DNA of 64,000 nucleotides from contig NC_091107.1 of NCBI RefSeq assembly GCF_024713975.1, forward strand, positions 14,497,501 through 14,561,500. Reading direction: 5' to 3'. Source of the DNA: Paralichthys olivaceus (taxonomy: Eukaryota; Chordata; Actinopteri; Pleuronectiformes; Paralichthyidae). Below, piece by piece: positions 24,335 to 62,852 of the stretch. A model generated the notes under the pieces. It was not told where the DNA came from. It searched no databases and saw nothing but the letters and a program-made list of their open reading frames with translations. Every line of letters starts with the position of its first letter. Position 1 is the stretch's first letter. Position numbers and translations under genes: made by a program.

Positions 24335-24408
24335 GAAGAAGCAGAAGAAGAAGACGAGGCAGAAGAAGATCAACAAGATCAGCAACAACCAGAAACAGAT
24401 CATTTAAG
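24335..24408 (+). other. Probable non-coding first exon of the NLR gene
   Basis: A purine-rich AGAAGAAG stretch ends in TTTAAG|GTCAGT, a good donor at 24409. The next acceptor (TTCTTCTACAG) at 25284 opens the exon holding the start codon. The 5' limit is a guess; a weak TATA-like TTACTATAAG lies at its 5' edge. Confidence 0.45.
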
Positions 24409-25353
24409 GTCAGTCGCTTTCTGCTGAATTTAATTAACAAGTATTAACAAGTAATAATAACATGTCGAGACGTGTCACTGACATGTGTGACCGCTGACAG
24501 TGTTCGGTCCCAGACGGCGAGGCGGAAGTTTAAAGTTCAAATAAGGAAACTGTCAGATACGGTCGTGTTATAAGATGGTTTCCGTCAGTCAGGGAGCTTC
24601 AGCCTGTGACATGAAGTTTAACACAAGAGACGTGTTGATGGTGGGCAGGCTGCTCACTGGTTTTCTTACATCAGGTCAATCATTTTGGAGCTATACGACC
24701 TGTTTATAAGAGGCCTGTGAGTAAGGTTATAACACTGGCTTAATAAGGGACTACATTTTTTTATCAGAGAAGAAAAACAGTATGATAGAACAAAATGAGT
24801 TTTACTGTTCCTCTTCCCAAACATGTGGATAACATGTTTAACATGAGTAAAACTTTACTGTAACTCTGTATGAAGCAAAACATTAGTTTATCTTCCTGTT
24901 CTTTATCAGCCATTTCCGTGTGAGACGCTAAACTCTTGTTATTCCTCTCGGTTGTAAGTTCAAGAGATCACTCTGTACGATCAGAAGCTGAGCAAAGTGA
25001 GCTGCACCATGCACCAGCAGAAACAAACTGTATAGAACAATCACTTAGGGAAATGTTGTTTGCAATCACAGGATTTTGTGTCGGAAGTTGAGCAATCATA
25101 ACACGCATACATACATAATGTTATCCATTTCCAAGTTTAAAGTAAATGGATTTTAAAGTAAATAGACTGAATACACTGAATCCCGTAAATCTGGTTTGGT
25201 ATAAATTTGTTCACACCGATGTGTCCTGATATAGAATTTCAGAAGAGATATACTGATGGGTCCTTCATGTTGGTTCTTCTACAGGTACAGACAGGTTACA
25301 GTCCAGAGACTGTCCCTGGAAAACAAAAAGTGATCCCCGCTCACTTGGTCGTA

Positions 25354-25371
25354 ATGTTAGCCTTTGGCTGA
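25354..25371 (+). promoter_or_regulatory. Upstream ORF of five codons
   Basis: ATG TTA GCC TTT GGC TGA lies inside the exon that carries the NLR start and ends 16 nt before the presumed initiation codon at 25388. Such a short uORF could damp translation of the NLR. Confidence 0.45.
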
Positions 25372-25387
25372 CCTGCTCAGTGACATA

Positions 25388-28208
25388 ATGGATGACAACG
25401 AACTGGGTGCTGTGGCCATGGAATCAGATAGCTCTTCCCTTGGGGATGCAGTGTCTGGTAGAGGACAACAGATTGTGTCAAATGAAGAGGAAGATCTCTA
25501 CTACATCCCAGAGAGAAGACCATCTCTGGACCTGGGACAATGGTCAACAAGTGCAATGGATACCAGCCGCTGGTAATGAAGTACAAATAGAAAAATAACA
25601 ACTAGGCTCTGTGTATGTGTGTCTTGCACACCTTTTGCTGCAGGCCAACAAGCAATAAAACAATTGCCATACATTTTTTCAGGCATTATGTGGACCGGGC
25701 CCGATCTCCAGTTCTAAGCTATACGTCACAGGCAACTGAGGAAAGCTCAATAGAAATGGATGATGAATCATCCACAAGGTACAAACAGAACAAAGTATTC
25801 AGTCCATACATTCATCACATTAAGCAGCTGTGCCTAACAATATACTGTAGCTTATACTGTATCCATGGAGAATTTCTTATGACATCATTTAATTTTAACA
25901 AAAGCCCTCTTGTCTGTCTGATTTTAGGATTCAGCTGGAAAGATCAGATTCGTTCTCTAGCTGCTACTCCTTCAACAGTGACGATATTGAACAGATAATC
26001 AAGTACGAAATACAACCATGGCAAGACACTCAAATGTCTGTGTGTGTGTGATTACAGTCAATTTGTTGACTGACACTAAAAACATGTTTAAATCTCTCCC
26101 CTGACACCAGAGCTGAAATCAAAGATGATATTGTCTCAGAACCTTTTGTCACACCTGAGGCAATCCAAACCCAGAGTGAGATCAGGCACCCTTCTCTGAC
26201 GGTGGAATTCACTTTCAAGGTCAGTTTGTCCCCCCTATTGTTTGTAATCGATTGCGTACAAAACACCCTTCAGTTGATGACAACGCTGAATTTCATCTTT
26301 CTTTTGGAATCAGGCCATCTGTGGTACCCTTAGGAAGTTGTCAGAGGTAGCTGTCAAGACATTCAAGACGATGCTGTGGAAGCATTACCCACAGTCGTTC
26401 AACACTCCTCCCCAAGACATGGACATACTGGACCTTGTGGACTGGCTGCTCGAGAGTTACAGCCTGGAAGTGTCTTTGCAGATAACCAAAATCATTCTTG
26501 GGGAGATGGGGCAAAAAAAGATGGTTGATGATCTCCAGACTTTGTGTCTCCGAAGTAAGTTCACTCCTACAATGTCTTCATTTCTTATTACTGTTCAATT
26601 AATCGTTATATAATACACATTTTCCTTTTTTCAGATGAAGTACGACATGATTTATGTGAGACTCTGAAGAGGATATATGGTGAAGTATGTGAAGATATGG
26701 CCTTGCCGGAAGAGAAGATTCCCTTTGACGACGTCTTTACTGACCTCTACATAACCTCCACATGTGATAACGGCCCAAATATTGAACATGAGGTCATGAC
26801 CATAAAAAAACTGGACAGCAACCGGGAAGCAGGGATGCGTCTTTCTACCAAGGATATTTTAACCTCTGAAAGGCTGAAGGACTCCAACACAAAGTTGCAG
26901 TTGATGACTGGAGTGGCAGGGTCGGGGAAATCAATGGCGGTCAGAAGGTTAGTCCTGGATTGGATTGAAGGGCGTTCCCACCAAGACGTGTCTTTTTTGT
27001 TTCCTCTGCTGTTCAGAGAACTCAAACAGTTTGAGGATTCCACAGCCTCCTTTTTGGAAATAATACAAAAACTCTACCCAGAATCTAAAAAGCTGAGAGA
27101 TGAGGATTATAGATGCGAGGACTGCAAAATAATGTTTGTCTTTGACGGCCTTGACGAGTACAATGGGACGCTCGACTTTGAAAACACTATGCTTCTCAGC
27201 GACCACACAGAACCCACCACCCTGAACGTCATTGTGGTCAACCTCCTCAGAGGGAGGCTGCTCTACCGCGGCCTCTTCCTGGTCACCTCTCGGCCACAGG
27301 TGAAACCCTGCATCCCCTGGGACACGCACTATGATGAGATCGAAGTTCGTGGATTCTGTGACCATGAAAAGGAGGATTACTTTAAGAAGAGATTTAAAGA
27401 CCCGGATCAAGCAGCCCGAGTTATTGCATATGTCAACTCTTTCAGAACCCTCTGTATCATGTGCCACCTGCCCTTGTTCTGCTCACTGGTTGCTGATGAG
27501 TGCTCTCGCATTTTTAGAGAACAGGGGACGGGGGCAGAGCTGCCCAGGAGCATCACGTCCCTGTACACAAAGCTAGTGCGAGTGCTCACACGCCAGCATC
27601 GCATATTAAGAGCTCCAGATTTGAGCCTGGATGAAGAGAGAGACTTCCTTATGAAACTTGGAGAGTTGGCCTTCAACATGTTAGAAGAAGGCCAGTTCAA
27701 AATCACCAGTTCCGACTGGAAAAAAACTGGAATCGACAACAAGGAGGCGGTGATTAACAGTGGCCTGTGCACACAATATGTCACAAAGCCATACATCTTG
27801 TTTCATGAGAATGTCTTGAGCTTTATCCACCCCACCGTGCAGGAGTACCTGGCGGCCCTGTATGTGTTTCTCTCCTTTAGAAACCAGGGAAGGAACGTTT
27901 TTGAGCAACAACCGAGAGGCATGCTCAAGATGTTCAAGGGACAGAAAGTCATGGAGCTGTACAAGAGCGCTGTGGACAGAAGCGTGCTCTGCGAAGACGG
28001 CAAACTGGACATTTTCCTACGTTTCCTTTTCGGGATGGTGCACGAAACCAACGTGGAGCTCCTACAGCCACTCTACACGTCCTCTGTAAAGTGGCCAACA
28101 GTGATTGAAGATGCTGCCACCCTCATCAGGAAGAGGATCAGAGGAAATCATCATCCTGGCAGAAATGACAATTTGCAGCACTGCTTGGAGGAGCTGGGTG
28201 TATGTTAG
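25388..28208 (+). CDS. LRR-less NLR: pyrin-like domain - FISNA - NACHT protein
   Basis: Exons 25388-25572, 25683-25778, 25928-26002, 26111-26219, 26314-26554, 26635-28208 join in phase to 759 aa. Residues 1-155, from four short exons, are serine/acidic and of unknown fold, with a RARSPVLSY segment like the short N-terminal repeats of fish NLRs. Residues about 156-235 resemble a pyrin domain (LRKLSEVAVKTFK, ILDLVDWLLESYS, LQITKIILGEMGQKK). FISNA follows (FTDLYITSTCDNGPNIEHEV), then NACHT with Walker A GVAGSGKS at 328-335 and Walker B FVFDGLDEY at 403-411, and a winged-helix region with FIHPTVQEYLAALYVF. The frame stops at 28206 and no leucine-rich repeat is found downstream. NLRs sense danger signals and nucleate inflammasomes. 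Layout recalls mammalian NLRP10, which also lacks LRRs, but orthology is not claimed. The start is the first ATG in frame; a TTG-begun extension is ignored. Confidence 0.88.
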
Positions 28209-29925
28209 CATCAGAGGCAGTATCCTAATAATCACTGCACAAAATCAGCACACAAAATATGTTGCAACTTACTCAACAGATTCCCGTTGGAAAAAAACTG
28301 AGGAGGAAGAATGTTTCTCTTCAACCAACATATGCACTAATGGAGTTAAAAGATTTAAGAGCCAAATGTACAACAACTATTCATCAGTGTTGTAAATACA
28401 AGTAGACGTTCGAGCCTTTCCATGGACACATGCATCTGTTTACAAGCTGATGGATAAGGAACCAGCAACCTCAGAACCATGACAACTGACAAAGTAGAGT
28501 AATGTAACTTGAAAGTATAGGAGCAGAGAAGCATACTCTGCATGAGTGTTGTATAAAGGCTACTATATACATTATATTTGTCCTGCCTGAGTTTCATCAT
28601 CATACATTTTTACATTTAAACAACATGAAGTTATCTAACTTGGTGTTTCATTGTAGAGCTGTGTGCAGCGCTCTTTGTTCCACTGTTACTCACTCTCTTT
28701 TTCTCTCACACTATCATTGACCATCACCTGCATCGGAACAAATCCAGCAAGAGACGCAGTTCTTCATATTATGTTTGTGTGCCATGGAAATTATATTAAA
28801 ACGTTTTTTGAAAGTGAAAAAAAACTTTGTGGTGCTTTAAGTTCCATAGTTACACTGATATACTGAAGATGTGGAAACAGAATATTTTAAGGGAATGGTA
28901 TTTAATGTGTTTAAATATAGGAAGGATTCACAGAAAGTTGTGAAGGAGCCTTACTTTTTGTAAGTTTATAATATACATCATTAATTATTACCAGACTGTT
29001 TTACAAGATATGACTCTATAATTTCTTGTTTTTAGGCGGACATGACATCTTTCATTTACATTGTGTTCCATCTTCATTTAATCCAACCTAGTAACATCTG
29101 TACTTAAGCTTACACCTCAGCAGGAAGTTACCTTTATATAGATACCAAGATCATTCATTAGACACTGTTTATGTTTAGTATATAATTTACAAGCAGGGGG
29201 TGTCTGGGAATACACCAGATTTTAAATTACTGCACTATTAGGGTATTATAGGAATATAGAATATATAACTATTAGCTGTGTGGCGAATGTGTGAAAACGG
29301 AATCTGCTTATCAGTTACTGCAGTCGACACATTAAAGAGCTGCAGTTCTGTCATTGCATACATTACACAACTAAAACTTACTTTACTCTAAACCGTGTAT
29401 CTCACATCCCTACCACACTGTTCAGTCTACTTGCACAGAGACTGGTAGAGTTGTGGTAGAGAGAGTGACACCTGTTCAGACAGACACAACATGTCTGTCA
29501 CAAATAAATGGTACAGGTAATAATAAATCTATAGGAAAACAACCTCAGGGTGGATTTAGCACTGAACAATAGTTTGTGAGTGAAAGGACAGCATGTATTT
29601 TCAAATGCTTCAATGGTATACATATTAAAGAGGGCTAAATGCAAGCAGACACAGGAATGATTCACAACCATAGCAAATAAAAGTGATAGAATATTCTCTA
29701 TATATTCTGCAGATACATTATAGCACTGCTTTACTACAGCTGTAAAAAAAGTTCATCCAGTTCCACATTTAAATGTTCTGTGTAAAATAAAAATGGTTAT
29801 AAAATACTTCAGTTGCTGTTTGGTCTGTACTGGCTCTCACCAAACTGTGTAACATCTAATATTAAATTCACAGATTAAGTTGTTAATAAATGAAGACAAA
29901 TCCATTAGTGTCACATTACTAACAT
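28209..29925. other. NLR 3' UTR and convergent intergenic space
   Basis: The region between the NLR stop and the il18bp stop on the other strand is AT-rich. I searched it for LRR-type exons and found none. A possible NLR poly(A) signal is listed at 28795. No other gene is seen. Confidence 0.5.
28795..28800 (+). terminator. Candidate poly(A) signal ATTAAA for the NLR gene
   Basis: ATTAAA about 590 nt after the NLR stop, followed by T-rich/GT-rich sequence. Variant hexamer, so only a candidate. Confidence 0.35.
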
Positions 29926-30988
29926 TCAGTGTTTTCCTTTCTTTCGTATCCTTCTTAGCTTTATTTGCTTCTGGGCCATTCCACCAGCACTCATCACCAC
30001 ACAGGTGAAGGTGAATTTGAGGTCCTCTGGTGTGACGTTCTTCAACAGCAATCTCCTCTGGAGGATTGTACCGTCCTCCAACGTTGATCTAAAAACATAC
30101 AATCAGTCATTACAGCTTTACCTGCAGGATTCTTAGAACAATCACTGTGTACACTGCTTTCTTTGAAGCAAGGATACTGTGGCTTGCAGTTTGATATAAA
30201 AGTCATAATACTTACTGTTCTAATTCTACTATTCTGTCACTGCTGGATCTCTCTTCAGGAAAAGAGCCATTGATGAGCCAGTAGATGAGCGTCACTCCAT
30301 CTTTATTATTTGTAAATGCATCACAGTGAAGAATCAGTGGCTCACCTGTGAAGCAGAACACACCCAAATAGTTTCAGTACATACATGTGTTAAATCAATT
30401 TTTAACGATTGAGAAAATAGCTCTTATGGTCAGGATGGAAAGGATGCTTTAAAGTTTTTTACTGCAATTCTGTTTGGAAGAATACCTGTTATTTGATTAA
30501 TTGTTTTTAAATGTATCCATGTTTTCCTGTTCTTTTGGCCAGGTCATGTAAAAGAGATTTTAATCTCAATGAGACTTTTACCTTTTTAAATTAAGATTAT
30601 ATCAATATATATATATATACAGAAACCCTGATATTAAACAAATCCTTAATGACAAAGCAAATGACAAAAAATACAATCAAAAGTACAACTACAAAGTGCA
30701 CTACCTGGATTAGCTTTGATTTGGACTCGCTCTGCCCCAATAATGTGTGGAGATCCATCCTCAGACACTGAAGAACAAACTGATGTTAGCAAAAACACTG
30801 AATACAGTTATACAACTGTGTCACCCACGAAACAAACTGTACCTTGAAATCCATCTGCAAGCAGCACACACAGGGATCCCAAGGCTGCAACAGGGAAACA
30901 ATGCATTAACAGTGTCGCTATAAAGATAGTGAAAATGAAAGGGTTGGTGTTATTTAATCTTACCTTTTACTACAGAGGACAGTTTCAT
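29926..30988 (-). CDS. il18bp: Interleukin-18-binding protein
   Basis: Exons 30964-30988, 30843-30884, 30705-30767, 30216-30345, 29926-30088 join in phase to a 140-aa secreted protein. A hydrophobic signal peptide (MKLSSVVKALGSLCVLLADG) is followed by one Ig domain. The B-strand Cys is in LILHCDAF, the C-strand motif is LIYWLINGSFPEE, and the F-strand Cys is in LKFTFTCVVMSAGG. Human IL18BP has the very similar ILYWLGNGSF and a FSCVL F-strand; this motif and the neighbour rnf121 (IL18BP and RNF121 adjoin on human 11q13) identify the gene. It acts as a soluble decoy that neutralises IL-18. Possible N-glycosylation at NGS and NVT. Shorter than the human protein (194 aa), with a basic tail (RRIRKKGKH) instead of the proline-rich human one. 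An IL-1R2-like decoy fragment is the main alternative. Confidence 0.82.
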
Positions 30989-31036
30989 ATTGATGATACT
31001 GGTGAGGTGTTTGCTCACTGCCGTTAAGAACTACTC

Positions 31037-31045
31037 TATATATAT
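31037..31045 (-). promoter_or_regulatory. TATA box of il18bp
   Basis: TATATATAG on the minus strand, about 50 bp upstream of the il18bp ATG. A start site near 31010 would give a 5' UTR of about 20-25 nt. Confidence 0.6.
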
Positions 31046-31111
31046 CCACACAGTGATATAATTAACTTCCTCTCCGCCCACTCAGTGTATGTACATTTAC
31101 ACTCAGTGTGT

Positions 31112-31121
31112 GGGGATTTCC
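31112..31121. promoter_or_regulatory. NF-kappa-B-type site in il18bp promoter
   Basis: GGGGATTTCC fits the GGGRNNYYCC kappa-B consensus and lies about 70 bp upstream of the il18bp TATA box. Confidence 0.5.
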
Positions 31122-31169
31122 TACGAGTGACCCACTATTGTTCCTGGATGGATGACACACACTTCAAGG

Positions 31170-31185
31170 TTCGAGGAAATCGAAA
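31170..31185. promoter_or_regulatory. Overlapping GAS and ISRE motifs in il18bp promoter
   Basis: TTCGAGGAA (GAS, TTCNNNGAA) overlaps GAAATCGAAA (IRF/ISRE core, GAAANNGAAA). The pair sits about 185 bp upstream of the ATG. Human IL18BP is known to be induced by interferon-gamma through IRF1/ISRE elements, so the arrangement makes sense for this gene. Confidence 0.55.
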
Positions 31186-31189
31186 AAGT

Positions 31190-32655
31190 ATTTTGACTGA
31201 ATCCTACTTCTCAGGTCATCAGTAGAAAAGTAATCGGGTTTAAAATGGTGGAACTACCAACGTCAATGATGTGCAGATAATACATACACACAAATCTCAA
31301 CCATTTGACATTTATTAACCCATCTTGATCAAAACATGAACAATAAAACAACATGATCAGGTTGGCCGTGTTGTACACAAACCTCGAATCAATCAGATCA
31401 CATAAAAATAAGACTGGCACCATCGGCAGTCACTGAGATAAAGGATCATTCCAGGATGTTTTCTCTCCTCATCATCCTCAACAGATGTTGTTTAAACAAT
31501 TAATGGTTAATGTTCAGTTACTAGCTGGTATTTTAGCTTTGGTTTGTGCTAATTTCTGATTTGAAAATACATAAAAATATCTTCTCACCTTTCGCAGTAG
31601 CTACCCATGCAAATTAATTCTGTTTTTATCCAGACGGGCTTTCTGCTGCAAAACCCAAAATAATGGAGGTGGATTAAATGTACTCATTAAAACCAACATT
31701 ATAAGATTTTAATTAAATGTAAAAGAAATATGTCTTACCTGAAACTTAAAATAATCCACAGAATTTATCTGACAGAGATGCATGAATTAGAAGTATCAGC
31801 AGGAATAGATACACAGCTGAGTAAGGAAATGTTTTTTGTACATTTCTAAATTTATTTTTATAATGCAAGTTAACCAATACTTAAATAGTCAATTTTACTT
31901 TGTTTGGATATTCCTCTGATTCAAATACTAAATTAATGAAACATGGAGATATTTCACAAAGAGTCAAAGCAGAGACAATTGTGTCAATAATGAGTGTCCA
32001 TGAAGACAATCAGGACATTTTAAAATCCTGTCATGAAAAACTCTGGATGAGAAACCTTATGATTCACGCTTTTTGCTCATGATGACAAGGCTAAAAGTCA
32101 CATGGTCCATTACCGTCAGCAATTAGAAAACTCAACTGCCAGGTCAAAGTGTAGAATCAGTCCAGGACAAACAGTTTTATCTGAGCAATTAACTTTAACC
32201 ACAGGTTTCACAGCTAAAGAGGAAGTCTGAGTACTGAAGAGGCAAAGGGAGCAATGATTTAAACTATTTCGGTAAAGTATTTATTTCTCATGTGATCAAC
32301 ATGAGGAAGAAAAAAACCAGCATGATCCTTTAACTATTAACACACACTTAAGACAGATTAAAAACCTCTCTAATGATTTCGAAAAACCGCTTTACTAGAC
32401 TGTAATATGCACAAACCAATTATTAAGGTGTAACGCTGGTGTAAAGCAAATCTTGGGAGACACAGACATCAAATTTCAAATTGCTAATAAAATTCAAATA
32501 ATCCGTAAACGCAGACAATGTGCCTATAAATACATACAAAAAAAGTATAGACACTTTTTATTGTTGTTTTTAGTTCAATGTTAGGCCCACAGTCTTTTCG
32601 AGCCAGTGCACATCTTCTATGTGTTGCGTGTATGTCCTTTTCTGACAGTCACAGG
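31190..32655. other. il18bp upstream and rnf121 3' UTR region
   Basis: AT-rich sequence between two tandem minus-strand genes. Part of it must be the rnf121 3' UTR. No further gene or recognisable repeat is seen. Confidence 0.45.
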
Positions 32656-39226
<6,571 letters not shown>

Positions 39227-39899
39227 CGTCGGAGTGCTGCTTCACCCTTCTGCGGCCATTAGCATTAGCGTCAAACCGGTACTGTTTGGCTCGCTTCCCT
39301 GCCCTTTCAAAATAAAGTTCGGAGGTAATGTAGGTCAAATATTGAGCCTGTGACAGAATGAGTTCATCGCAGGATGTTTGAAGTCATTTGTTTATGACAA
39401 CAAAAAAACAGTCCGAGAAAGTGTGTTGGGACATTTCCACACAACATGCTTGTGAGGATGTAAAACAGGAAAATGATGAATGACACTGATGGAAGAAGTA
39501 CTCCGATCTTTTACTAAACACAACAATACAACAGTGTGAAAATACGCACATAAAAGTACAGTACGATTTATTGATCAATGGTCTTTATTTTATCATATAT
39601 TTTAAAGGTATGAATATAATGTTACAGCTGGTAAACAAAAGAAAACGTAGGATACTGCCAGGTAGTTTAATCTATAGTAATAAATCATAAATATATGTAA
39701 ACATATGAATAAATGTAGTAAATACACTATGTACAATAATGGTACGTGAAATGAAATGCAGAGCATGAAATAGAAGCAAAAAACATTTTATCCGCTCGCA
39801 TTATTCAGTGTTCTGAATCACTTGGGATACCGATTTTTAAAATCACTCAATAATTCAAAAACTAAAATCTTCCTATTGCCTGTAATGGAAAATCATTAT

Positions 39900-40005
39900 G
39901 TACAAATCATCATACATTCTGCTGCCATTGTGAAGCATCTTCTTGTGTGATTTTGAAAAGTTATCTTTAAATAAAGTTTAAAATTATTATTATTATTATT
40001 GTTTT
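39900..40005 (+). repeat. Retroposon tail with (ATT)n
   Basis: GTGAAGCATCTTCTTGTGTG, then GAAAAGTTATCTTTAAATAAAG, and ATTATTATTATT resemble the 3' end type also seen at 10640-10735. It lies between rnf121 and rrm1. Confidence 0.4.
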
Positions 40006-40394
40006 TCTCCTACTTTTCTCCTAACATATTTCCATTTATGATTTACTTTTCTCAAATGTGCAACTCTATCTTTCTGAAGTGGCACTAAAACCGATGATTT
40101 ATTATGATTGTATTACTTTAACATCCACAGATATTTATATTCTACACTTTGTGTATTTCATTGATTTCAAATGCATTACTGTAACTATCTGCCACAGCTT
40201 CTCTTGTGATGACAATAACACATGTGGATGTAAGTTATAAACTGCACCACAAACAGTATAAGAAGCTCAGTCCTGTTGCGGAACCGAAACACAATGATTA
40301 TATTTGACAACAGAAGCAGCTGTTAGGAAGCAGCCCGCCAGATTTGGACCGGAAAAGAGACCGGAGGTTGGACATGTCTCAAGCGCTGGCTCGT

Positions 40395-40482
40395 GATTGG
40401 CTCACAGGTCTGCGGGGCTGTCCTGTGATTGGCTGAGCCGCTGACACAAAGCAGTGTAACTGGCTGGAGGCTCGTTGGCGCC
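40395..40482. promoter_or_regulatory. rrm1 proximal promoter: two inverted CCAAT boxes and an E2F-like site
   Basis: GATTGG occurs at 40395-40400 and 40428-40433, 33 bp apart (three helical turns), as in NF-Y-driven cell-cycle promoters. TTGGCGCC at 40475-40482 fits an E2F half-consensus. All lie 125-215 bp upstream of the rrm1 ATG and there is no TATA box. Confidence 0.5.
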
Positions 40483-40607
40483 TCAGTTTGAGATCCAGCT
40501 CCGTTCCTCGACGGTTCTTACGGTGTCATAACCCGCGGAAAACCAGCTCATTCACCTGTTTCCAGAGAAAAACACACCGTGTGACCACAAGCCGCTCTGC
40601 TGCCACC

Positions 40608-43600
40608 ATGCACGTCATTAAACGAGGTATTGTCACTCATTTTACTGCTTTTCTGGTGAAATCATACACGATTGTGCGGGAGGTGTGCAGACAAATTACT
40701 AAAACGCATCTGGGCTCTGATCAAAGTGAAGGGTGTGAAGAAGTGTAAGACTTCATGTGGACTTCAGCTCAGTTTCACTCATTTAAAATGTGTGTTCTGT
40801 TGTTTGTTTGCGCGGCGCGTTTACGACGAGACAAACAAAGAAGTAGGACACATACTTGCTGTACATACTTGTTTTATCTCTTTTTGAAATACTATAATAA
40901 CCTGCAGCACAGCAGAGACTTTCACATCTCGTCTTCCCTGTGCATTTGTATCAAATTCAACTTTTTCACACGCTTCGCTGCAGCAGTGATGTGACAGAGG
41001 AGGCTTGTCATCAGCAGTGACAGGTCTTGTTATGGCGCGAAGCAGCGGAGGGGTTTCCTTTTGTTGCCATGATAACTGTCAGACAGGTGTTCAGTGGGGC
41101 TGTGGGATGTGTTCACAGCTGCCACCGTAACCAGCAATGTTCACCAGGCTTCACCATGTCTCATAAGAGGAACACAATGCTGTTGTTTGGGTTTCAGATG
41201 GTCGCCAGGAGGGAGTCACCTTTGATAAAATCACCTCTCGTATTCAGAAGCTTTGCTATGGACTCAACTCTGACTTTGTGGACCCTGTAAGTTCCAAACA
41301 CTTTAAAATGCTATATGCTGTACATATATGTGTGTGTGTGTGTATACATACATACATATATGAATGTATAGAAATGGGTATAAATGTAAATAAACAGTAA
41401 CATACTAAATAACAGTATATGCTGTTTAGTATAACTATATAAAGATGTATATATATTCATAAATAGATCTGCGTATATTCATGAATATATATATATGGCT
41501 GCTATATATTCACAATAGAACAATGTGATATAAATATAAAATCGTATGCAAGTAGCCTATATATTTACACACACACATATATATGCAAGTAAAATTAAAT
41601 TATTCAAGTTGAATTTTCACAATAGGAGGTACACATGAGGAAACCCTTTGTCTCTGCTCCTGCAGACCCAGATTACCATGAGGGTGATCCAGGGTCTTTA
41701 CAGCGGAGTCACCACCGTGGAGCTGGACACCCTGGCAGCAGAGACCGCCGCCACCCTCACCACTAAACACCCTGACTACGCAATCCTGGCCGCACGAATA
41801 GCTGTGTCAAACCTGCACAAGGAGACCAAGAAAGTGTTCAGTGGTGAGTAAAAGTGTTACGCTAGCATTGACAGAAGTACTGCTTGATGACAAACTGAGT
41901 GGTTTGTGTGATTACAATTGCATTTAAATAAATAACACCAGCGATGCCTTACAATGAGGCCCTGTGGTGCAACATTTCTGGCAAATGACACATTGTGGTG
42001 GAAGGTTGCACAGTGTTTTTTTTCCCCTCAGGAAAATGCCTATTCTGGGCAGTAAGCCACCCATATCATGACACATCTAATCTTGCCCATGACTTTACTT
42101 AGAAGATGACAGCCATTTATGCATGGTGTTTGCTGTGAGAATTCATTTTAATCTTTTCTTTAAAATTTAATTAAGTTTTGGTTTAATTTCAATACAATGT
42201 AAATGTTTTAATATGTTAGAAGGTGTGTTTTTTTGTCTTTTGCTATAAAACAGTGCAGGAAACCCTGTCTTGATTCATTGTACACTATAAAAGTGATGAA
42301 ATCATTACTATTTTTACACTTTCTTTCCCTTTTCTCTTTTGCAGATGTGATGGAAGACCTGTACAACTATGTCAACCCATTAAATAGACGCCATTCTCCC
42401 ATGATCTCCAAGGAGACACTCGACATTGTCCTTGACAACAAGAATGTACGTCACCGTTGACGATATATTTGATCATGTTTTGTTTTATTCTTGAATTAAG
42501 TTTTGCATTTCTTAACATAATTTCCACATTTTTTCTTTGCAGCGCCTCAACTCAGCCATCATTTTCGACAGAGACTTCACTTACAATTTCTTTGGATTTA
42601 AGGTAATTACAAATTTTCACTAGTCATACATTAAACATCTCACTCAGATGACTTTGGCATATGAATCTTACTTGTTCTTTTTCTCTTATAGACTCTTGAG
42701 AGGTCATATTTGTTGAAGATCAATGGCAAAGGTGTGAGTCGATTTTTTTTTTTTTTCTTGCTACAACTCCAGAAGCTTATCTTTTGTTGTTTAGATTTGT
42801 TAAGATGAGTCAGTTGTGTGTTTGATTGGTAATTAAGTTCTCTCCCTGCAGTTGCTGAGAGACCCCAGCACATGCTAATGAGAGTGGCCGTCGGGATTCA
42901 TAAAGGAGACATCGATGCAGCCATTGAGACATACAACTTGCTGTCAGAAAAGTGGTTCACCCACGCCTCACCTACACTGTTCAATGCTGGCACCAACAGA
43001 CCACAGCTGTCCAGGTAAATAAAGAAAAATGTTGCTCTGAACAAATTTAACCAAAATGTCTGAAAGTTGATTTTTGTTACTAATACTTGTTTCTTTTTTT
43101 GCAGTTGTTTCCTGCTAGCCATGAAGGATGACAGCATAGATGGTATTTACGACACACTGAAGCAGTGCGCTCTCATCTCCAAATCAGCTGGAGGCATTGG
43201 ATTGGCAGTCAGCTGTATCCGAGCAACAGGCAGCTACATTGCTGGGGTGAGAAAAATAAACATTGCAAAATATTGTATTAACAGAGGAGCTTAAATTTAA
43301 TATGATTTAAACTGGTGTGTGTTTTTCAGACAAATGGCAACTCCAACGGGCTTGTTCCCATGCTTCGAGTGTACAACAACACGGCACGTTACGTCGACCA
43401 GGGAGGCAACAAGGTAAGATCAGAGATTTACACACAAATGTTGTTGACGTTGTTACTGGAGAGAAGCATTTTTTTGGGTGTATTTTCAGTATATTTTTGG
43501 GGCTTTTATGGCCTCTAATTTTTGAAAGGAAGGAGAGCAAGCTGTGAGGGGGGGACAGAAAGAGAGTGGGGGACGACATGCAGCATAGGGCCACGGGTTG

Positions 43601-48588: not shown

Positions 48589-54058
<5,470 letters not shown>

Positions 54059-61411: not shown

Positions 61412-61745
61412 ACAGAGGGCTGCTGCAGTAACAGACAGAAGAGCGAGAGAGGAGGAGATCCACTCGACTGTTCGCAGAGTTGAAAAGACACATGATACTT
61501 CTCTCAGAAAGGATAAAACATTCGGAATGTGGACGCAGCTGAAAGCTCAACTTAAATGAGGAATATTAGTTGTGGACAGCTTTGGATACAGACAGGTATT
61601 TTCCGGAGTTGCTGTCTCCTTTTCTTTTCTGTATTTCTTGACATAAAAACACATGGTAATGTCACAATTCGATTCTAGCTATTCCTGCCTGTTGCACACA
61701 GTTGGATAAACAAGTTCAGCTTCGATTTTTTGGACGCTCCGGCAC

Positions 61746-62852
61746 ATGACTGAGGAGGACGCCTTCACTCCGTACACGTTCCAGACTCACCAGTTAAAGA
61801 TGCAAAATAGCATGAACTGCAATAAGAGCGATGACTTTAAATACCCTCTGTACAGCTCGGTTTTCAGCCTGGTTTTTGTAATTGGACTAATTCTCAACAT
61901 GGTGGCTGTATATATTTTTGGCTGTACATTGAAGCTGCGAAATGAGACCACGACATACATGATAAACCTTGTGGTTTCAGACTCTCTCTTTGTTCTCAGC
62001 TTGCCTTTTCGGATCGTTTACTTCATTAAACGTGAATGGTTATTTGGAAGTGTGCTCTGCAAGATCTCGGTGGCTGTATTTTACACCAACATGTATGGCA
62101 GCATCCTCTTCCTCACCTGCATCAGTGTTGACCGCTTCCTGGCCATAGTGCACCCATTTCGGTCACAGGCTATCCGCACTAAGAGAAATGCCAAACTGGC
62201 CTGCTGTGTGGTGTGGGTGATGATTCTTTCTGGGAGTATACCCACAGGGTTTCTTTTGGACACCACTTCACCCAAAAATGCCAACTCCTCCTTCTGCTTT
62301 GAAAACTACTCCAAAAAACAGTGGAAGGCTGAGCTGTCCAAGGTGGTGGTGTTAATTGAGACTGTGGGCTTCATCATCCCGTTGATGGTCAATGTGTTCT
62401 GCTCGGTCATGGTGCTGCGGACACTAAGGAAACCGCAAACCATTAGCCGTGGGGGGAACCTCAACAAGACCAAAATCCTGAGGATGATCCTTGTGCATCT
62501 GCTCTTCTTCTGCTTCTGCTTCATCCCCTACAATATCAATCTCATCTTCTACGCCCTGGTGCGCTCCAATATCCTGAAGGGATGCTATGCAGAATATGTG
62601 GTCAGAGCTATCAACCCTATAGCTCTGTGCATAGCAGTGACCAACTGCTGCTTTGACCCAGTCATTTACTACTTCACTTCTGAGACCATTCAGAGCTCCA
62701 TCAGACGCAAGACCACAGTGTGGTACAACGGGACTCGGCTATTCGACCGACTGCAGATGGACAGCCCGCAAAGCAGCCCAATCTCCACACCAAAAAGCCT
62801 GACGCTGAGGAGTCTCAGGTCAAAAACGTTTGTCAGTGAGTCAACAGTCTAA
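61746..62852 (+). CDS. lpar6: Lysophosphatidic acid receptor 6 (GPCR), nested in rb1 intron
   Basis: A single-exon 368-aa class A GPCR. TM1 is about residues 37-60 ([19 protein letters not shown]); then [22 protein letters not shown] (TM2), the TM3 end DRFLAIV in place of DRY, and the TM7 DPVIYYF in place of NPxxY. The close match to human LPAR6/P2RY5 ([38 protein letters not shown]) and its position, antisense in the intron before rb1 exon 18, fix the identity. LPAR6 couples LPA to G12/13 and Rho; in humans it acts in hair growth. Three in-frame starts are possible (61746, 61800, 61812). The last two have A at -3 and give an N-terminus closer in length to the human protein; the longest is reported. 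Confidence 0.95.

Follow-up and report, generated by a model that had tools for sequence, protein, structure and literature searches.

Gene content of the locus and structure of the NLR gene

The window, a stretch of 64,000 nucleotides of the Paralichthys olivaceus genome (contig NC_091107.1, positions 14,497,501 to 14,561,500), contains an NLR gene, hereafter the window NLR gene, within the gene order cnksr-like, window NLR gene, il18bp-like, rnf121-like, rrm1-like, trpc-like, rb1-like and rhodopsin-type receptor (Table 1). The names of the neighbors, including rnf121, go beyond their Pfam domains and are presumptive assignments of ours. The il18bp-like gene, whose PDB matches are members of the IL-1/IL-18 receptor family and IL-18BP, lies tail-to-tail with the window NLR gene with 1.7 kb between them, and this adjoining of an IL-18 decoy and an inflammasome-type gene may reflect either chance or shared regulation. 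In mammals, il18bp, rnf121, trpc2 and rrm1 are clustered on the chromosome on which NLRP10 also resides, which we regard as a lead only. A search of the open-licence literature by title and start of abstract found no paper on a fish NLR beside il18bp. Elsewhere in the window, the rhodopsin-type receptor near the C-terminal exons of the rb1-like gene, on the opposite strand, resembles the lpar6-in-RB1-intron arrangement, and a Glu/Lys-rich open frame of 314 codons (48589-49533, minus strand), for which Pfam gave no match at E<=0.01, is located between the rrm1-like and trpc-like genes.

Table 1. Features of the window NLR gene, its protein and the neighboring genes (positions are those of the window)
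Feature	Position	Strand	Residues	Evidence or remark
cnksr-like		-		CRIC, SAM, CNK2/3 domains; precedes the window NLR gene
Window NLR gene	25388-28208	+	759 aa	six coding exons, one frame
Coding exon 1	25388-25572	+		start codon; acidic Ser-rich N-terminus
Coding exon 2	25683-25778	+		GT..AG
Coding exon 3	25928-26002	+		GT..AG
Coding exon 4	26111-26219	+		GT..AG
Coding exon 5	26314-26554	+		pyrin domain
Coding exon 6 (large)	26635-28208	+		FISNA, NACHT, winged helix, HD2, stop codon
PYRIN (PF02758)	26320-26526	+	158-226	Pfam
FISNA (PF14484)	26658-26825	+	244-299	Pfam E 4.6e-9, 36.8 bits
NACHT (PF05729)	26901-27401	+	325-491	Pfam E 3.7e-22
Walker A GVAGSGKS	26910-26933	+	328	motif
Walker B FVFDGLDEY	27135-27161	+	403	motif, with second acidic residue
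Winged helix NOD2_WH (PF17779)	27642-27824	+	572-632	Pfam E 1.4e-8
HD2 NLRC4_HD2 (PF17776)	27828-28196	+	634-756	profile 1-113 of 121
TAG stop	28206-28208	+		three codons past HCLEEL
ATTAAA hexamer	28795-28800	+		motif match only
il18bp-like	29926-30988	-		five coding exons, single-Ig; Pfam 'YLDV-IL18BP-like' E 2.3e-9
Probable rnf121-like		-		weak RING match E 0.2; after il18bp-like
rrm1-like		+		ribonucleotide reductase barrel
trpc-like		-		TRP_2, ankyrin, ion channel
rb1-like		-		Rb_C
Rhodopsin-type receptor	61710-62852	+		single exon; 7tm_1 E 1.2e-62

All five introns of the window NLR gene have GT..AG borders, and the large exon belongs to a stop-free run of 523 codons, which would be expected by chance with a probability of ~4e-15 in random sequence of the same composition. 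The coding sequence has a GC content of 0.48, as against 0.35 for 28209-29800, and the assembly letters of the window include no N. A motif scan of 28209-29900 found nine poly(A)-type hexamers, beginning with the ATTAAA at 28795. A possible pair of 5' non-coding exons (24340-24408 and 25285-25387, plus strand) was noticed by eye only; a purine-rich stretch with the end AAG/GTCAGT is followed by an acceptor CTACAG at 25284. The idea that exons 1-4 are copies of one repeat was rejected, as none of the six exon pairs was more similar than shuffled sequences.

The initial annotation, made from the letters of the window and a list of open reading frames, had placed a gene with a pyrin-like domain, FISNA, NACHT with intact Walker A and B motifs and a stop closing the large exon at 25388-28208, and the six-exon model, the Pfam families and the motifs agree with it in these respects. 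Its statement that the protein ends after NACHT has to be corrected, since a winged helix and an HD2 domain follow, the latter covering 93% of its profile. The FISNA score exceeds the Pfam cut-off of 28.1 bits, and the PYRIN domain (PYD) scored 22.7 bits in the whole protein (cut-off 22.9) and 28.0 bits when scanned alone. No Pfam family matched residues 1-155, which comprise 32 acidic, 12 basic and 35 Ser/Thr residues. In a PDB sequence search, the closest solved structure was NLRP3 (E 1.6e-27, residues 258-715), with FIHPTVQEYLA at the boundary of winged helix and HD2 aligned to the FIHMTFQEFFA stretch of the NLRP3 chain; the next matches were NLRP9 and then 5irm, an entry titled 'Uncharacterized protein' that we take to be rabbit NOD2.

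At E<=10, the PYD with short flanks matched 12 distinct sequences of the PDB (best E 0.0011). Ten of these are ASC sequences, and the other two are pyrin-domain-only protein 1 and a hydrogenase that is unrelated. These weak matches hint at an ASC-type PYD. This identity is a lead and not a result, because in its own genome the PYD matched only itself at E<=0.01 among three scored candidates, and the ASC of this genome was not recovered.

The early stop and the absence of leucine-rich repeats

The large exon of the window NLR gene ends earlier than those of the relatives compared. In all 29 paralogue loci compared (L003-L031), it extends 70-71 residues beyond the point aligned with the stop here and ends in a motif of the kind tabulated for NLR-C exon ends (PMC6988351), and in nine further loci (L032-L040), inspected over the last 90 residues, the frame likewise continues well beyond that point. 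Each of the 29 paralogue loci has one or more strict LRR motifs within ~1.29 kb after the open frame. With these loci as positive control, none was found in 28209-31000 of the window, in line with the initial annotation, which had reported no LRR exon in the 1.7 kb after the large exon. Across six frames of the whole window, the strict motif occurs once, spanning a stop, compared with 3.2 occurrences in base shuffles; a looser pattern gave 70 matches on both strands of 28209-42000 and, being without a control, was not used. In the three forward frames, no Pfam family was matched at E<=1 between 28209 and ~30.0 kb.

The possibility that a decayed piece of the usual exon end persists beyond the stop was considered and rejected, since a profile built from the 29 paralogue exon ends had no match in three frames from the stop to 30.0 kb. 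A pattern scan covering five of the six NLR-C group patterns (group 4 was left out) found agreement at 8 of 10 positions for ISVVNTSRRS (28383, in frame); the top scores of 100 shuffles had a mean of 6.64 and a maximum of 10. An exon-end probe scored 26 downstream, a score equaled or beaten in 298 of 300 shuffles. With nothing left of the 71-residue extension after the stop, a fresh point mutation does not account for the truncation. In our preferred reading, the final 70 residues of the large exon, together with the LRR and B30.2 exons, were lost from the window NLR gene or were never part of it.

It might be argued that LRRs are nevertheless added, by splicing from a cryptic donor within exon 6 to unrecognised exons, or that the stop is an assembly error. 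When donors were scored with a donor-site matrix, CCT/GTATGT at 27860 reached -0.03, within the range of the gene's own five donors (-0.3 to 4.5), and GGT/GTATGT at 28200 fell below this range at -1.07; 6 of the 20 GT sites in 27851-28260 scored above -2.5. Set against the acceptable score at 27860 are the lack of strict LRR motifs where all 29 paralogues have them, the lack of a Pfam match downstream and the failure of the paralogue exon end to resume in any frame. In addition, the other strand is taken by the il18bp-like gene from 29926. We therefore consider added LRRs or a misassembled stop very improbable.

Relatives in the same genome and the kind of NLR

A DNA search with exon 6 against the same genome (588 Mb, 25 contigs) returned only exon 6 itself, on C15, and the corresponding protein search gave 82 scored matches, comprising itself and 81 others that are 28-37% identical; as 82 of 93 candidates were scored, these counts are lower bounds. 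The window NLR gene is a singleton in its own genome, as had been proposed initially. The relatives, at least 81 in number with at least two pairs that resemble pieces of one gene, are in many cases arranged in arrays on C1, C2 and C17, and none of the scored matches lies elsewhere on C15. A pattern scan against viral contigs gave four matches, with no relative among them.

The best paralogues reach E values down to 6e-91 across the FISNA-NACHT-WHD-HD2 exon (L003-L040). In a tree of 39 rows (the window NLR gene, the 29 loci and nine more from the same match list), the branch leading to the window NLR gene measures 2.17 changes per column and joins a polytomous fork, a placement for which the program flagged long branches meeting and the bootstrap had not settled. 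Its highest identity to any row is 35%, and the nearest loci by tree path are L005, L004 and L007 (2.8-2.89). Such a long branch could reflect age, fast evolution, relaxed constraint or decay. The Walker A sequence GVAGSGKS is found in the window NLR gene only among 41 loci (L002-L042, two of which duplicate another's gene) and is absent in the 40 others. As side observations, L040 (C6:10812000-10817500) is the sole locus of L002-L042 with GVAGIGKS, the group 2 motif, and also sits on its own branch in the tree, and the genome holds arrays of closely similar NLR-C-type genes with GVAGVGKT and scattered genes with GVAGIGKT, which resemble groups 6 and 5, respectively, of the round goby paper.

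In fish NLR-C genes, one large exon encodes FISNA, NACHT and two helical parts, with the other parts on single exons; death-fold domains are described for groups 1 and 2 and N-terminal repeats for groups 2-4, and mammalian FISNA is reported for NLRP3 and NLRP12 (Howe et al., PMC4852459). The window NLR gene has the general NLR features of NACHT with Walker A and B, winged helix and HD2 and lacks C-terminal LRRs; FISNA lies directly before NACHT in one exon with WHD and HD2, and the group-specific last residues of the large exon are absent because the stop comes earlier. By exon layout and FISNA, we assign the gene to the fish NLR-C kind, an assignment made from sequence features. Its Walker A motif matches none of the six tabulated group motifs exactly (PMC6988351), differing at one of eight positions from group 2, at two from groups 4-6 and at three from groups 1 and 3. 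A lean towards group 2, defined here by a death-fold domain plus N-terminal repeats of ~30 aa that each occupy one exon, loses weight in view of the tree; the PYD provides a death-fold domain, and exons 1-4 resemble one another no more than shuffled sequences do.

Putative role and comparison with known systems

We propose that the window NLR gene is an intact, probably functional, single-copy teleost gene of the NLR-C kind, encoding a PYD-FISNA-NACHT-WHD-HD2 protein without LRRs that acts mainly as a regulator, a reading to which we give an even chance. The NACHT-WHD-HD2 module would bind ATP and oligomerise, and the PYD would engage ASC through homotypic contact; for comparison, NLRP3 self-oligomerises via NACHT and recruits ASC via its PYD (PMC9978379). 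Having no LRR/B30.2 sensor, the protein would mainly determine how readily ASC specks form and IL-1beta is released, like zebrafish Nlrc3-like. The latter, reported to be without LRRs (PMC9174460) and termed PYD-NACHT (PMC10253273), is described as an anti-inflammatory Asc partner (PMC9978379) that restrains Asc-dependent inflammasomes (PMC9174460), and by analogy with this likewise LRR-less protein a regulator or adaptor role is plausible. The argument that LRRs act as a brake is weak here and disputed for NLRP3, because the LRRs of NLRP3 have been reported not to be auto-repressive (PMC7479093), and the title of another paper states that the LRR is required for NLRP3 activation in macrophages (PMC9763864).

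A protein of this layout might instead be an autonomous inflammasome of the NLRP10 type, sensing cell damage via NACHT or PYD and nucleating ASC specks, with release of IL-1beta and IL-18. NLRP10, after earlier reports of inhibition, is now described as inflammasome-forming, with ASC specks and IL-18 release upon mitochondrial damage (PMC11742652), so the absence of LRRs does not decide between regulator and inflammasome; moreover, NLRP3 1-717, which is without LRRs, responds to some agonists (PMC7479093), and the Walker motifs are intact here. However, zebrafish Nlrc3-like, as the closest precedent in fish, is inhibitory, and no NLRP10 chain appeared among the PDB matches of either the PYD or the full-length protein, which counts only as far as that library contains NLRP10. 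Sequence cannot tell whether the protein restrains ASC, as Nlrc3-like does, or nucleates it, as NLRP10 does; given the fish precedent and the ASC/POP-like matches of the PYD, we favor restraint and regard an autonomous inflammasome as possible but unlikely. The long branch in the tree would also suit a truncated NLR on its way to a pseudogene, with the LRR and B30.2 exons deleted and the frame open by chance or youth, and decay of this sort has been reported in fish, with many NLRs broken by stops in channel catfish and most FISNA-NACHT exons frameshifted or carrying insertions in round goby. Such decay is hard to reconcile with six exons and five splice pairs that are all open and an HD2 that is near complete, and the extension has vanished without trace, yet the 523 codons before the stop contain no stop; we consider it improbable.

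More speculatively, the restraining regulator that we favor might be a conserved single-copy teleost NLR beside il18bp, with an NLRP10 layout that evolved independently, co-regulated with the IL-18 decoy receptor as an inflammasome/IL-18 brake; this extended proposal is, in our estimate, improbable, though slightly less so given the single copy in this genome. The gene is of interest as an isolated, divergent, LRR-less gene, whereas at least 81 other places in the genome match it, often within tandem arrays. If layout and position prove conserved across fish, it would offer a tractable single gene for the study of NLR function without LRRs and could be set beside NLRP10 as its counterpart, the view of NLRP10 as an inhibitor or a sensor having changed.

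The initial annotation regarded the gene as a candidate for poorly described biology, which overstates the case as far as the architecture is concerned. Teleost NLRC3-like proteins have been divided in a review into at least eight categories, PYD-FISNA-NACHT and PYD-NACHT being two of them (PMC9978379), and several NLRC3 homologues of black rockfish are reported to be without LRRs (PMC10648357); the LRR-less layout is thus already known in teleosts and not new. With the PYD-FISNA-NACHT category, the window NLR gene shares PYD, FISNA and NACHT without LRRs and a FISNA-NACHT-WHD-HD2 large exon with N-terminal parts on small exons, a likeness to the description of the category rather than to member sequences. 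Its Walker A motif, as a difference, fits none of the six tabulated group motifs. With the NLRs of its own genome (L003-L040), it shares a homologous FISNA-NACHT-WHD-HD2 exon at no more than 35% identity in the tree alignment, and it lacks both the ~70 further residues and the following LRR motifs that all 29 examined loci possess. Zebrafish Nlrc3-like has in common the PYD-NACHT layout without LRRs and a putative ASC-directed role; Howe et al. count an NLRC3-like zebrafish protein, under our assumption the product of this gene, among the NLRs that lack FISNA (PMC4852459), in contrast to the FISNA match of 36.8 bits here, and Nlrc3-like is an analogue, not a demonstrated orthologue.

Among mammalian proteins, NLRP3 is the best PDB match over FISNA-NACHT-WHD-HD2, and the window NLR gene differs from it by the lack of LRRs and by extra N-terminal exons before the PYD. 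The comparison with NLRP10 (PYNOD) made at the outset holds for the layout of PYD and NACHT without LRRs, whereas FISNA and a long acidic N-terminus before the PYD, both of which NLRP10 to our knowledge lacks, set the window NLR gene apart. Because the gene has FISNA and the relatives examined within its genome are NLR-C-type genes followed by LRR motifs, the loss of LRRs within the fish family would be a simpler reading than membership of NLRP10.
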